Assembly (NCBI GenBank): GCA_016196065.1
Contig: JACPYL010000025.1
Coordinates: forward strand, 558,001 to 622,000
Length of the DNA: 64,000 nucleotides
Origin: Acidobacteriota bacterium
GTDB taxonomy: Bacteria; Acidobacteriota; Terriglobia; Terriglobales; Acidobacteriaceae
Reading direction: 5' to 3'
This document shows, in pieces, positions 41,130-45,144 of this stretch (its first letter is position 1; every line of letters begins with the position of its first letter). The position numbers were made by a program, and so were the translations under genes. Below the pieces are notes generated by a model. That model saw only the letters and a list, made by a program, of their open reading frames with translations, ran no database searches and was not told the origin of the DNA.

Positions 41130-41906
41130 TTAAGTCGCGGCCTTTTCTGGAATCCAGTAAATCTCTTCCTTGAGATGTTCCTTTTGAAAGCCAGCGCGTT
41201 TCAGGATTCCCTTGCCATTCTCAACCATGTCCGGGTGCCCACACAGATAGGCCGTGCTGTTCTGCGCCGTGCATCCCCATTGATCGGTGTATTTGCGGAT
41301 CAGTTCATCCACACGTCCAACTTCGCCTTTCCAGTCGGCGTCCTCCCAGGGACGACTCACGGTCGGGATGTACGTCAGCCAAGGCACTTCCTGCGCGAAG
41401 CTTGCCAACTCGCTGCGGTACCCGAATTCCCACGAGCGGCTGGCACCATTGACCACGAATAATTTGTGGTCGCCTTTGAACTTGCCGTCTTTCCAGTCTT
41501 TAAAGAGCGTTCTCACATAGCTCACGAAAGGCGCGATGCCGGTGACGGTACAGAGCAACAAGTGATGGTTGCGTTCGGGATTCGAGGTGTCCATCGTGAA
41601 ACGGCCCTTGGGAACCTTGCGCATCATGACTTCGTCGCCGAGGTGCAGCAAATGCAGCGGAGGCGTGGTCGCGCCATGGGGCACGAGTTCGAAGAAAAAC
41701 TCCACTTCGCGCTCGTGGGGGGAAGACACGATGGAGTACGGACGCTCCAGGCGCCGTCCTTCCACGTCGAAGCCTTCCACGCCGAGCGTGGCATATTGGC
41801 CGGGCTGAAAGGGAAAGGCTGCGCCTGGGTCGATGCGGATCATCCAAAGGTCGTGCGCGAACTCCGCTCGCGCCGTGATGCGGGCCCGGAAATGCTTGTC
41901 GCTCAT
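41130..41906 (-). CDS. Ferredoxin-NADP+ reductase-like oxidoreductase
   Basis: A 258-residue protein of the FNR superfamily, the normal length for bacterial Fpr enzymes. FAD-binding is seen as RPYSIVSSP near residue 54 after FPFQPGQYATLGV. NADP-binding is at CTVTGIAPFVSYVRTL near residue 118 and GTASR-type NGASRSWEFGYRSEL near residue 155. The end CGHPDMVENGKGILKRAGF matches Fpr. It moves electrons between NADPH and ferredoxin or flavodoxin. The 797-base region upstream contains a probable structured leader or small RNA on the same strand, which may control it. Confidence 0.9.
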   Translation of the reverse strand: MSDKHFRARITARAEFAHDLWMIRIDPGAAFPFQPGQYATLGVEGFDVEGRRLERPYSIVSSPHEREVEFFFELVPHGATTPPLHLLHLGDEVMMRKVPKGRFTMDTSNPERNHHLLLCTVTGIAPFVSYVRTLFKDWKDGKFKGDHKLFVVNGASRSWEFGYRSELASFAQEVPWLTYIPTVSRPWEDADWKGEVGRVDELIRKYTDQWGCTAQNSTAYLCGHPDMVENGKGILKRAGFQKEHLKEEIYWIPEKAAT

Positions 41907-41926
41907 AGGAGAAGGTCTCGAAACAA

Positions 41927-42080
41927 GGTGTCAGGTCTCAGGTGTTAGGTTTTAGGAAGTCAACCGCCTGGCCGGTAATGTTAACTCAAAAAGCGGGTGT
42001 CAGGTGTCAGGTTCTTAGGTCTCAGGATACCGGTCCGAAGGTCTTCCTGATACCTAAGAACCTAACACCTGACACCTGCT
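41927..42080. repeat. Composite inverted repeat, TGTCAGGT family
   Basis: Units of GTGTCAGGT on the left (41928 onward and again from 41996) pair with ACACCTGACACCT near 42065-42078. The inner arms AACCTAAGA-type and TCTTAGG also pair. Located between the RNA locus terminator and the fpr-like start. Confidence 0.8.
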
Positions 42081-42089
42081 CTCAAAAGA

Positions 42090-42121
42090 ACAGCCCGCAA
42101 GCTTTGCAGCCTGCGGGCTGT
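42090..42121 (-). terminator. Intrinsic terminator of the RNA locus
   Basis: Read on the minus strand, ACAGCCCGCA (42121-42112) pairs with TGCGGGCTGT (42099-42090) around a 12-base loop, followed by TTCTTTT. It would end the small RNA, or act as the attenuator 184 bases ahead of the fpr-like start codon. Confidence 0.75.
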
Positions 42122-42302
42122 CCGGTGGACTGGTTGGGATTGACTGAGGCGGTCACTCTCGTGGCCCCCCGCTCATTCCGGTACCCGGAGCAGCTTGCGC
42201 CGGGTGGATCAGCCCATACTCACGGATTGTTTGCGAGAGAGGTCTCTGCTTTCCCCGACCAAAGGGTCTACAGAAACTCCCCATAGAATTAGAGCAACCG
42301 CT

Positions 42303-42359
42303 CTAAGTCTCAGCCACCTCACCTGGTCTGGAACAACAATGTGCATCTGAACTTTGCAT
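42303..42359 (-). CDS. Putative 18-codon leader peptide with adjacent Cys codons
   Basis: ATG at 42359-42357 is preceded by AAAGGAGGTGG (42374-42364), a near-perfect complement of the 16S rRNA tail, at optimal spacing. The peptide would read MQSSDAHCCSRPGEVAET and stop with TAG at 42305-42303, just as the folded domain begins. Two neighbouring Cys codons in a short ORF ahead of a terminator recall amino-acid-responsive attenuation. Whether it is translated is unknown; the exceptional ribosome-binding site is the main support. Confidence 0.45.
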   Translation of the reverse strand: MQSSDAHCCSRPGEVAET

Positions 42360-42387
42360 CCGACCACCTCCTTTCCGGTGTAAGCGC

Positions 42388-42417
42388 AGATTACAAAAAA
42401 ACGTCGTTGCGAGTCAA
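42388..42417 (-). promoter_or_regulatory. Promoter candidate for the RNA locus
   Basis: On the minus strand TTGACT (42417-42412) is followed after 16 bases by TGTAAT (42395-42390), or after 18 bases by TAATCT (42393-42388). Both boxes match the housekeeping consensus at five of six positions for the first pairing. Transcription would begin near 42384, about 10 bases before the strong ribosome-binding site. Confidence 0.55.
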
Positions 42418-42465
42418 CGGCACAAGGGTGGGGTTCCATGGAAGGCAACAGAAAAACAGGGGTTA

Positions 42466-42492
42466 GGTGTCAGGGATTAGGTGTCAGGAACA
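42466..42492. repeat. TGTCAGG repeat arm
   Basis: GGTTAGGTGTCAGG followed by GATTAGGTGTCAGG, two direct units of the family at 41927-42080, without an obvious inverted partner here. Confidence 0.6.
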
Positions 42493-42613
42493 GCGAAATC
42501 GAATCCGCTGTACATGCACAGCAGGCATCTACCTTTGGTGCTGTCGTCTCCCTAGACTGATAAGACCCTGCAAAGAGCGGGACGGCTTCCCCCTAAGTCA
42601 TAGATCTTTAGAC

Positions 42614-42700
42614 CAGTTCTCGGTTCCCAGTTCTCAGTTCTCAGAAAACCTTGGCGGTATGCGCTTTCACTGAGAACTGAGAACCGGGAACTGAGAACTC
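42614..42700. repeat. Composite inverted repeat, TTCTCAGT family
   Basis: CAGTTCTCGGTTCCCAGTTC and CTCAGTTCTCAG on the left face CTGAGAACTGAGAACCGGGA and ACTGAGAAC on the right. It ends 4 bases before the ubiX-like stop codon, so it would lie in that gene's 3' untranslated region. Confidence 0.85.
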
Positions 42701-42703
42701 ACT

Positions 42704-43306
42704 TCAGCCTTTCCACTGGAACGCGTCCTTCTGCGGGAGTCCGATGTGAGCTAGAACGCGATTCGCGAACTCGTGCGCCATGGTCTCGACGCTAGTCGGA
42801 CGGTTATAGAAGGCCGGGATGAGCGGAAAGATCGTCGCCCCTGCGTCCGCTGCTAGGGACATGTTGCGGATGTGGATCTTGTTGAGCGGCGTTTCGCGCA
42901 CGCACAACACCAGCGGCCGGCGCTCTTTCAGGGACACATCGGCAGCGCGCTCGATCAGGTGCAAAGCAATGCCGTTGGCGATGCGGCCCAGAGTACCGAC
43001 GCTGCAAGGAATCACGACCATCGCGTCCGAAGGATACGACCCGCTGGCGACGTTGGCGCCGATATCGGAATTGGACTGATGGTGAATCTTCTCCGACGGT
43101 GTGCCGATGATCTGACGTAGCAGGTCAGAACGGCCTTCGATTCCAAGTTCCTCGGCAATGACGCGCAAGGCGCTGCCGGAAGCGATGAAATTAACGGTCT
43201 TGACCCGGTCATCGCGTTCGACAGTCAGCAGTAAGTGCTTCAGGAACAACGCCCCACTGGCGCCGGTGGTGGCAACGGTAAGGTTTTCCGGCGGCGAAAG
43301 ATACAA
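42704..43306 (-). CDS. ubiX: UbiX-like flavin prenyltransferase
   Basis: A 200-residue flavoprotein of the UbiX/Pad1 family, which joins a prenyl group to FMN to make the cofactor of UbiD decarboxylases in quinone synthesis or aromatic-acid metabolism. Visible segments: VATTGASGALFLKHLL at the start (flavin-binding GxSG), VVIPCSVGTLGRIANGIALHLIERAADVSLKERRPLVLCVRETPLNKIHIRNM-type core, and the PAFYNRP segment. The start is taken as TTG 43306, with AGGGGGG 8 bases before it and homology right after; a longer frame to 43525 has no homology there and overlaps the next gene. No ubiD is in the window. Confidence 0.88.
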   Translation of the reverse strand: MYLSPPENLTVATTGASGALFLKHLLLTVERDDRVKTVNFIASGSALRVIAEELGIEGRSDLLRQIIGTPSEKIHHQSNSDIGANVASGSYPSDAMVVIPCSVGTLGRIANGIALHLIERAADVSLKERRPLVLCVRETPLNKIHIRNMSLAADAGATIFPLIPAFYNRPTSVETMAHEFANRVLAHIGLPQKDAFQWKG

Positions 43307-43405
43307 GATTCCCCCCTGTGGCGAAGGCCACTGATTGCATCGAAGTTGAGCATAGGGACCGGCCGGGCTTTCAGTCAAGGCAGGACGCGAGTGGAAAAAG
43401 TGCGG

Positions 43406-43485
43406 AGTAGAGACGGGGCTTGCCCCGTCTCCGCCGCAATCGGAGATGGCGCTGCACACGGAGACGCGGCAAGCCGCATCTCTAC
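43406..43485. repeat. Pair of inverted GAGACG-family hairpins
   Basis: GTAGAGACGGGGCTTGCCCC at 43407 onward is itself a hairpin, and GGAGACGCGGCAAGCCGC near 43460 is another. The two elements are also inverted copies of each other with a few differences, so they can fold alone or together. It ends 12 bases ahead of the ChaN-like start codon. Confidence 0.85.
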
Positions 43486-43497
43486 TAGAAAATTGAT

Positions 43498-45144
43498 ATG
43501 GCGACGCAAGGGATATTGCGGTCACGGCGGAGTGCGGCGCAGCTTCATGCGCTGGTCGGGGTGGAGCGCGAAATCCGCTCTTACGATCATGCCGGCGGAC
43601 GCAAATATCTTCGCGACTTCCGCGACGCTTACCAGTCCTACCAGGAGATCCTTACGCCAGAGCAGGTTCGCGACGAGATCGCGGGCTCCGAGATTGCGCT
43701 GGTTGCCGACTATCACGCATTACCGAGTTCGCAGCGCTTTCTCGCTTCGTTGATGCGCGATCCGGAAGTAAACCGGCGTCCACTGGTATTGGGAGTGGAG
43801 ACGATTTTTTCCCGCGACCAGCACATTGTCGACGAATGGTGGCGCGGCGAGATCGAGGAAGCGGAGTTTCGCGAGCGCGTCCGCTTCGACTTCGACTGGG
43901 GATACGACTGGGTTCCGTTTTACGAATTGCTCTCCGCGGCCCGCGACCATGCGATCGGCGTTTACGGACTCGACTGCATGCCACGCGAAGACCTGCGAAA
44001 GATCAACGCGCGCGACCGTCACGCCGCCGACAAGATTGCTGAAATTCACGCGCGTCATCCCGATGCGCTTGTGCTGGTGTTGTTCGGGGAATCGCATCTG
44101 GCGCCGCGGCATCTGCCGGCGCAGGTTAGGGAGCGTCTTCCGAATGCACGCGTGATTACGGCGCTGCAAAACGTGGACGCGCTCTACTGGCGGGCTGCGG
44201 GCGAGCCATCCGATCACGTGGAAGCGGTGCGCGTTGCCGACGACGTGGTCTGCGTCTTCAACGCGACGCCGCTGGAAAAATACGAGAACTACCGGCTTTA
44301 CCTCAATCGCTGGGGACGAAATGAACAAGGCGCGATTGATCTGGGACCCACCGTTTACAACCTGATCGACGGACTGGTGCGATTTCTCGGCATCAATCTA
44401 TATTCGCCGCACAACACAACGCAGCCACGCCTGCTGGTCGACTTGATGCCGGAAGTCTATTCCCGCAACTCGGACAGTCTTTTGCGACGACTTCTGTCAC
44501 GTAAAGGGTTTTCGGCCAGTGAGCGCAAGGCCATGTTGCAGCGCGTGCACGATCGAGGCAGCGCATACCTGGCGCCGCTCAACGCCTTCTATATTCGTAA
44601 GTTCCACATGATGACCGGTGCGGAAGATGCCGCACGGTTCCTGCACCATGCCTGCCGCGGCCTGCCAGATCGCGTCAACGGAAAAGTTCCCGAGCCGCGC
44701 GCGCCACATGATGCCTTCTTTGCCGCAACGCTGGAAAATGCTCTCGCTTGTTTTGGATCGCGCATTCTCTATCCCGCACGCCCGGCGTTTCGTGACGCGG
44801 ACTTGCGGGCGCTCTATGATTTGACTCGCGAAGATCTCGAGCAACAGACTTCCCTGCCTTACTCGGATGCCGTGGAAATTATCGATTTCGTTGCCTGGCA
44901 TCGCGAGTCAGGACGCCCCGATCGTGCGGCCGCTCCCGACTGGTCACGCGCCCTGTCATTCAGCGGACGCAAACGGGAATACGTTACGCAACAACTGGGA
45001 TGCCTGCTGGGAAACGACCTCTACGATGCTTACCTGGAAGGAACCATCAGTGCTCCCTTGCTGCGGAGGCTGTTCCTGGAACACCTTGAAGCCCCTGGCG
45101 CCGCCCAGCTGGCCTACGCGAATCTAAACCAGCGCCTGCGGTGA
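43498..45144 (+). CDS. ChaN-like (haem-binding uptake family) protein with long C-terminal extension
   Basis: A 548-residue protein. The first half (residues about 50-290) has the ChaN/DUF399 pattern: EIALVADYHALPSSQRFL, LVLGVETIFSRDQHIVDEWW, GLDCMPREDLRKINARD and VLVLFGESHLAPRHLPAQV. ChaN proteins bind haem and are linked to iron uptake. No signal peptide is visible, unusual for ChaN lipoproteins, so a cytoplasmic role is possible. The second half (residues 300-548) is alpha-helical and unrecognised. The gene precedes a Rieske oxygenase by 42 bases, probably one transcript. Confidence 0.8.
   Translation: MATQGILRSRRSAAQLHALVGVEREIRSYDHAGGRKYLRDFRDAYQSYQEILTPEQVRDEIAGSEIALVADYHALPSSQRFLASLMRDPEVNRRPLVLGVETIFSRDQHIVDEWWRGEIEEAEFRERVRFDFDWGYDWVPFYELLSAARDHAIGVYGLDCMPREDLRKINARDRHAADKIAEIHARHPDALVLVLFGESHLAPRHLPAQVRERLPNARVITALQNVDALYWRAAGEPSDHVEAVRVADDVVCVFNATPLEKYENYRLYLNRWGRNEQGAIDLGPTVYNLIDGLVRFLGINLYSPHNTTQPRLLVDLMPEVYSRNSDSLLRRLLSRKGFSASERKAMLQRVHDRGSAYLAPLNAFYIRKFHMMTGAEDAARFLHHACRGLPDRVNGKVPEPRAPHDAFFAATLENALACFGSRILYPARPAFRDADLRALYDLTREDLEQQTSLPYSDAVEIIDFVAWHRESGRPDRAAAPDWSRALSFSGRKREYVTQQLGCLLGNDLYDAYLEGTISAPLLRRLFLEHLEAPGAAQLAYANLNQRLR

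Follow-up and report, generated by a model that had tools for sequence, protein, structure and literature searches.

In the passages of the literature at hand, Ms_IGR-5, labelled by Rfam (RF02471) as an actinobacterial sRNA, appears repeatedly as a transcript. SLIV_16488 of S. lividans is annotated as Ms_IGR-5 with RNA-seq support (PMC8079986), and MS_IGR-5 and 6C are the two Rfam matches among 139 sRNA transcript units of S. avermitilis (PMC8780764). The IGR-5 of M. smegmatis, which from its name we take to be the Rfam Ms_IGR-5, overlaps ncMSMEG15794c (PMC10454040), and significant ribosomal reads were reported on MS_IGR-5 homologues of M. abscessus and M. smegmatis, with the caution, in the same paper, that RNPs and many non-coding RNAs also yield footprints (PMC4974804). 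The accessible part of a related sRNA paper (PMC3828370) makes no mention of IGR-5, and a partial survey of the literature returned no statement on the function of Ms_IGR-5, on an ORF within it or on its pairing with the tail of the 16S rRNA.

The window, that is, the whole stretch of 64,000 nucleotides of acidobacterial DNA analysed here, carries on its minus strand what is very probably a small RNA gene, with the parts listed in Table 1. We read it, with moderate confidence, as a stand-alone, ribosome-loaded dual RNA of an acidobacterial Ms_IGR-5 branch, in which translation would decide the fold of the remainder of the molecule. A sequence-only reading of the locus had proposed a minus-strand promoter, a very strong ribosome site, an 18-codon ORF, a closing stem, hairpins and a terminator; direct reading found all of them, with the closing stem exactly where it had been placed. 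As for its promoter boxes, TTGACT stands, but TGTAAT (42395-42390) lies two bases off the conserved TAATCT. A plain sigma-70 consensus scan of the locus returned no promoter, so that the promoter call rests on conservation: promoter-like boxes are comparable in all 27 aligned loci, each of which has a -10 element of the loose pattern TANNNT. These 27 derive from 30 early loci after removal of L020 (the same place as L030) and of L024 and L028 (terminator only); L002, L016, L029 and L030, which are cut or gapped, were excluded from alignment A1. The RNA start at 42381 agrees with the match of the covariance model R1 (see below), and RF02471 matches in relatives begin at the corresponding place. 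Relatives also have the SD, the ORF, the stems, the linker and the terminator, and in their alignment the terminator stem shows compensatory changes. The 298-nt RNA is predicted to fold at -131.2 kcal/mol, as compared with -108.4 ± 5.3 kcal/mol for shuffled sequences, none of 200 shuffles folding as well (z -4.3), a fold beyond what chance would give.

Table 1. Parts of the RNA gene on the minus strand of the window, with the evidence for each.
Feature	Coordinates	Strand	Basis
Promoter: -35 TTGACT (42417-42412), 18-nt spacer, -10 TAATCT (42393-42388)	42388-42417	-	Sequence reading and conservation
RNA, about 298 nt, from 5' end ACACCGG to T-rich tail	42084-42381	-	Conserved block; ends inferred
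Extended Shine-Dalgarno (SD) AAAGGAGGTGGTC	42362-42374	-	Complement of the 16S rRNA 3' tail, one G-U
18-codon ORF MQSSDAHCCSRPGEVAET; ATG 42359-42357, TAG 42305-42303	42303-42359	-	Read directly; conserved frame
Stem P0a, 5' strand CACC	42377-42380	-	Pairs with 42323-42320; swap test and covariation
Stem P0a, 3' strand GGTG, within ORF	42320-42323	-	Partner of CACC
SD-like GAGGTG within ORF, 6 nt ahead of last sense codon	42315-42320	-	GAGG-N11-stop in 154/154
Closing stem P1, 5' strand TGGCTGAG, overlapping ORF codons GTG GCT GAG	42309-42316	-	Direct reading and swap test
Closing stem P1, 3' strand CTCAGTCA	42141-42148	-	Direct reading and swap test
Hairpin H1, CTTAGAGC-loop-GCTCTAA, stop codon TAG in 5' strand	42289-42307	-	7 pairs in 44/44 A2 sequences
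Hairpin H4, GGCCAC/GTGACC, one mismatch	42151-42166	-	Consensus fold; two-sided changes few
Conserved linker AATCCCAACCAGTCCACCGG	42122-42141	-	Assigned in 123/154; Rfam consensus counterpart AAUUCC..GCAGUCACC
Intrinsic terminator CAGCCCGCAGGCTG-CAAA-GCTTGCGGGCTG and T-rich tail; stem 42120-42091, tail to 42084	42084-42120	-	Read directly

BLASTN with a 351-nt query found matches in 28 of 61 genomes, the source genome included, and in 21 of the 24 genomes of the genus; some of these were partial, the match in G041 comprising 34 nt only. Two models, both covering just the 5' ~95 nt, were then used at greater distance. R1, a covariance model built on 95 nt at the 5' end, had matches in 154 genomes out of 399 from the class and in 105 of the 110 sampled genomes of the family (counted by hand from a kinship-ordered listing), with a single match per matched genome except for G093 and G365, which had two. 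The sequence-only model, R2, matched 61 of 297 genomes of the phylum, other classes included, once each. A pattern describing the ORF end retrieved 107 stretches from a genome collection of 84,980 species, and the 80 matches listed all bore acidobacterial names. The same pattern gave no match in viral contigs and the L185 copy matched no plasmid, on which grounds a mobile origin of the RNA was rejected. From these distributions, the RNA looks like an independent gene present about once per genome in many Acidobacteria.

The loci that we read are those fetched from R1 and R2 matches, a subset; 50 of 58 R1 loci were used, and the excluded ones (L178, L180, L183, L184, L186, L227, L228 and L229) were mostly repeats or near-repeats. 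Counts of the reading frame refer to 154 sequences (146 distinct leader-plus-ORF sequences), 84 of them fitting the search pattern (L021, obtained by BLAST, fits loosely) and 70 found with the models, and include only L001, L002, L021 and L025 of the early loci. ORF-end spacing and the TAG stop are fixed by the pattern in the 84 sequences; they were not imposed on the 70, but the models had been trained on such sequences.

At the gathering score, Rfam returned no match anywhere in the window. In a scan of the locus at E ≤ 10, which gave weak matches only, the window copy reached 11.8 bits against RF02471 (cut-off 45), and another place in the same genome, outside the window (G000:C25:313508-313648), scored 20 bits, above the RNA itself. 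The window copy is thus not a member by Rfam's rule, and its tie to the family rests on intermediates. Among 20 diverged relatives, RF02471 matched ten at this RNA (model positions 1-184; E from 2.5e-8 to 0.95), three of them above the cut-off: L242 with 50.3 bits, L185 with 49.3 and L237 with 47.3 (44.5 in a rerun on a smaller set); the other ten gave no RF02471 match at this RNA in a permissive Rfam scan. L185 comes from the same family as the window and is given 73.6 bits by R1, so that homology of the window copy to RF02471 members was found by way of intermediates. Over 247 genomes of the phylum there were 13 RF02471 matches at E ≤ 0.001, two above the cut-off and 12 coinciding with R2 places, and none among the listed genomes of the window's family. 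The thirteenth, in G619, was dropped because it sits inside a long ORF. The 14 control genomes yielded no match at E ≤ 0.001 and six at E ≤ 10, none over the cut-off. The earlier statement that the RNA matches no common family holds for the window copy at Rfam cut-offs, but some relatives do match RF02471.

The acidobacterial copies also resemble the Rfam consensus, that of an RNA labelled actinobacterial, part by part: the consensus has ACACA, GGAAGGAGGUGGUCC, GUGAGGUGGCUGCCCGCUAG, the GAGG-N11-UAG spacing, a closing helix, AAUUCC..GCAGUCACC and a terminator, in the same order. Sequence comparison thus suggests that the RNA is most likely a diverged acidobacterial branch of Ms_IGR-5, distantly related to the actinobacterial RNA.

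The 16S gene of the source genome ends in GGCTGGATCACCTCCTTTCT (mature end assumed). Against this one tail, used for all duplex predictions, the 154 leaders were predicted to form 13-20 bp, with a median of 17 bp and energies from -21.2 to -37.7 kcal/mol, the window copy forming 17 bp at -27.7 kcal/mol. Even the strongest of 52 control starts, at -18.4 kcal/mol, fell short of all 154 leaders, the controls being the first ATG of window ORFs of at least 200 codons, some of which are likely not genes. In the 5.5-Mb genome, the 13-mer AAAGGAGGTGRTC occurs in two places, this leader and opposite the 16S gene, as compared with one occurrence of the reversed control pattern. The leader of some distant families, AAAGGAGGTGATCCA, is an exact complement of the 16S tail, and in other lineages one base is inserted and pairing resumes on either side of it (AGGAGG-N-UGAUCC). 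As far as these predictions go, the ribosome site is exceptional.

Such a leader invites the main rival to our reading, namely that the RNA is a decoy for ribosomes or 30S subunits that occupies the 16S tail, parks ribosomes and lowers SD-dependent translation, its ORF and internal SD holding the ribosome in place. A predicted tail pairing far beyond the needs of initiation and unique in the genome, its continuation on both sides of the inserted base and the fixed distance from GAGG to the stop all argue for a decoy, which would nevertheless have no need of a conserved downstream domain, a linker or an in-frame ORF; we consider it unlikely, though deserving of serious attention.

All 154 sequences have an in-frame start after the SD, no internal stop and a stop codon exactly 11 nt past GAGG. 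Among the 70 model-found sequences, this stop is TAG in 55, TAA in ten and TGA in five, and a codon that varies in identity yet stays a stop is hard to explain without translation. The other frames are closed in 126 (+1) and 150 (+2) of the 154, and the distance from stop to linker, taken modulo 3, falls into classes of 45, 42 and 36 of 123 sequences, with no period of three. L006, a relative from the genus that lies outside the 154, has ATC where the others have ATG. For L249-L252 our script had chosen an inner ATG (6 codons), and the GTG beside the SD was taken instead (14 codons). These four loci are the most diverged form and the least certain relatives (R2 21-25 bits; ORF end MEVAAP, stop TAG), and a linker looked for in them was not found. 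Since the frame has been kept open by evolution, the RNA probably works by being translated, and we regard translation of the 11-22-codon ORF as probable.

The predicted peptides have 11-22 residues (the shortest, of 11, is MSSNHSEVAET) and a body rich in Ser, Gly, Arg, Thr and Cys that varies in length and sequence. Single-base codon changes in the body of the ORF were synonymous in 37 cases and non-synonymous in 80, as compared with expectations of 27.9 and 89.1; by this count the body appears weakly conserved as protein. The end of the peptide is EV[A/T/P/V] or EGA followed by two residues in all 154, encoded through the hexamer GAGGTG in 145, GAGGGT in eight and GAGGTA in one. One could thus suppose a small mRNA whose effector is the peptide, with its EVAEA- or EVAET-like end. 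The frame kept throughout and the recurrent ending are what such an mRNA would show, but the body is variable and weakly selected, and the conserved end falls within paired RNA strands and hardly varies in nucleotides, which makes this reading improbable.

An ordinary non-coding sRNA containing an ORF by chance appears very improbable: the RNA is structured, conserved and provided with a terminator, its peptide body is weakly conserved and L006 lacks a normal start codon, as this explanation would have it, but the stop stays a stop in the 15 of 70 sequences where it has become TAA or TGA, start and frame are retained in the other sequences, and the distances from stop to linker have no triplet period.

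Codons of the ORF body are rare in the long ORFs of the window, AGT making up 20% versus 0.75% and GC3 being 16% versus 67%. These A/T-ending codons may point to slow translation or to nothing more than a lack of structure in this stretch. As side observations, AGT, TGT, AGA, TCT and ACA are enriched about 11-38-fold in the ORF body (for instance window 42356-42321) over the window's long ORFs, and codon positions 2 and 3 are biased to G and T. The Cys-Cys pair that the sequence-only reading had emphasised occurs in eight of the 84 pattern sequences and one of the 70 model-found, 9/154 in total, and is therefore a feature peculiar to the window copy and a few others. Of the conservation expected among relatives, that of the stems and of the reading frame is seen and that of Cys-Cys is not.

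Pairing within the RNA was compared in A2, a set of 44 of the 83 distinct 5' stretches that was our own choice. In P0a, the RNA 5' end pairs with the four bases that end at the first G of GAGG. It is kept in 43 of the 44, one pair being C-G in 32, U-A in nine and G-C in two and another changing from A-U to G-C; the 44th sequence could form it in a register shifted by one. Swapping strands between relatives shortened the longest P0a stem from a mean of 4.44 to 3.66 ± 0.10 (best of 300 swaps 3.94; 68 distinct strand pairs, in 11 of which the stem has only 3 bp). For three helices taken jointly, the share of paired cells, the number of double-changed cells and the covariation score exceeded those of all 500 shuffles, and two other measures were unclear, as 35 of 500 shuffles reached the number of pairs with double changes and 340 of 500 that of further pair types. 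P0b (TGGTC/GACCA) was paired in 86.4% of cells. H1 is without covariation because its changes fall on one side only.

The closing stem P1 scored -11.93 with native strands versus -11.05 ± 0.22 with swapped ones over 54 distinct pairs, none of 300 swaps going beyond -11.58, which is a modest effect. The 31 of the 154 sequences to which no linker had been assigned were excluded from this test, and L052, L098 and L200 had been given a wrong one. Clear single cases are GACUGAGGCC with GGCCUUAGUC in L230 and GGCCUG with CAGGCC in L243 and L244. Two registers compete with it: GAGGTGG (42320-42314) with CCGCCTC (42152-42146), and GGTGGCTG with CAG.CCACC or CAG.TCCACC, the closing stem given by RNAalifold, the MFE structure likewise drawing a stem that competes with P1. 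From these folding models, the closing stem of the sequence-only reading and that of RNAalifold and MFE are both possible. Covariation in homologous loci, which had been suggested as a check, is thus clear for one stem and modest for another, with one-sided changes only in H1, as judged from the alignments. Most linkers resemble AAUCCCAACAG and have ACCG shortly after it, and of the 123 assignments at least three are wrong; AAUCCCAACAG is a candidate for pairing with target RNAs.

In eight loci (L216, L217, L218, L219, L222, L223, L253 and L254), a 5' CACUGA or CACUGG matches UCAGUG or CCAGUG downstream of H1; in one family such a match would take the place of P0a. The ORFs of the same eight end in EVADC, EVADS or EVAGS, and they perhaps represent an alternative architecture of the same RNA.

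The surroundings of the RNA gene are not constant. The fpr-like gene found downstream in the window (Pfam NAD_binding_1 and FAD_binding_6) is present in that position in seven of the 27 aligned loci, a set in which two loci are cut off ahead of any downstream gene. In 66 further loci from the class and the phylum, the nearest downstream ORF lies on the opposite strand in 37, ORFs having been called crudely. The commonest downstream Pfam family in that set, to which the genus loci do not belong, is NUDIX (8/66), and the commonest upstream ones are ABC transporter or glycosyltransferase (5/64 ORFs). With such low top counts, a constant neighbour was rejected as a clue to function.

In the window, the spacer between the terminator and the fpr-like gene is filled with repeats. 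Degenerate inverted and direct repeats occupy both spacers flanking the RNA gene (41926-42080 and 42465-42699), with arms of 36 nt (92% complementary) and 30 nt (93%); in a permissive Rfam scan, the same spacers gave matches to microRNA families below the respective cut-offs. Upstream of the RNA, a gene for a UbiX-like flavoprotein (42707-43525, minus strand; Pfam Flavoprotein) belongs to a cluster with 18 members in the 27 genus and family loci, often upstream and on the same strand, and also found in other genera (L026, L027). Adjoining it, 43498-45144 (plus strand) encodes a large protein that has a haem-binding domain resembling ChaN/Tiki (PF04187) and belongs to a cluster (c0) with 19 members in the 27 loci.

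That the locus serves the fpr-like gene starting at 41906 as an attenuator leader responding to cysteine or redox state, as the sequence-only reading had offered in view of a promoter, Cys-Cys ORF, terminator and gene in order on one strand, is scarcely credible, since neither that gene nor Cys-Cys is conserved, the nearest downstream ORF is often on the opposite strand and the spacer ahead of the gene is full of repeats. The other option of that reading, an independent and possibly dual-function small RNA, gains support from the RNA's own promoter and terminator, its near-single copy throughout the phylum, the lack of a fixed downstream gene and the conserved frame.

Four elements of a stand-alone, ribosome-loaded dual RNA are supported by comparison of relatives: an independent gene with its own promoter and terminator, a 5' leader whose sequence complements the single-stranded 16S tail, a reading frame of 11-22 codons that is open in nearly all relatives, and last ORF codons that double as strands of P0a, P1 and H1. 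Built on these, the mechanism that we propose would begin with the capture of 30S subunits by the very long SD, the predicted duplex covering the 16S tail. The ribosome would read the 11-22 codons to the stop, melting P0a, P1 and H1 on the way. Given the length of the ribosomal tunnel, no part of a peptide of 11-22 residues is expected outside before the stop is reached. Once the last sense codon has reached the P site, the GAGGUG 6 nt upstream would stand at an ordinary SD distance, so that a terminating or post-termination ribosome may linger there. Ribosome-occupied and free RNA would then differ in the closure of the 3' domain. The obvious sites for output would be the conserved linker and the P1 3' strand, whose exposure would change between the two states. 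If the translated and untranslated folds differ in this way, the RNA might report on, or draw on, the supply of initiating ribosomes. Candidate outputs are pairing with other RNAs, the holding of ribosomes, or the peptide.

A bolder version, in which a near-universal, housekeeping-like RNA of Terriglobia, other Acidobacteriota and Actinobacteria senses or buffers the free 30S pool through this change from occupancy to fold, is speculative and, on present evidence, doubtful. Were it true, such an RNA would be an RNA-based ribosome sensor. Diverged relatives in a second phylum lend Ms_IGR-5 comparative power, which brings out the frame, the predicted pairing with the 16S tail and the stems overlapping the frame, and turn an sRNA without a found function into a hypothesis of ribosome sensing that is directly testable in non-pathogenic laboratory bacteria.

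Extended SDs are described for rpsU in Flavobacteriales and in Staphylococcus aureus, where, in the accessible parts of the reports, SD-16S pairing is likewise longer than usual (PMC9976891, PMC13009471). However, rpsU is an ordinary protein gene, whereas the extended SD described here leads into an 11-22-codon ORF within a structured RNA. That the extended SD of rpsU could serve as a sensor of ribosome state is a reading made here, by analogy. tmRNA also has a short ORF whose stop codon is located in a helix, a trait that the acidobacterial RNA shares. As to identity with tmRNA, ARAGORN found none in the window, the tmRNA model (RF00023) gave no match at the locus, and the genome's tmRNA lies elsewhere (168.6 bits); this identity was rejected. 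So was that with 6S RNA (RF00013), whose model did not match at the locus, with a candidate elsewhere in the genome. That candidate (G000:C25:374301-374491, outside the window) scores 42.7 bits, under the cut-off of 46.4, and 6S RNA was above the cut-off in seven of the 15 genomes searched. The dual-function sRNAs SgrS/SgrT and RNAIII combine a short ORF with a structured, regulatory portion on one transcript, and the RNA described here would be of the same build. Unlike in those RNAs, the end of the ORF overlaps the structure in the acidobacterial RNA, and reading the one and folding the other would therefore be mutually exclusive.
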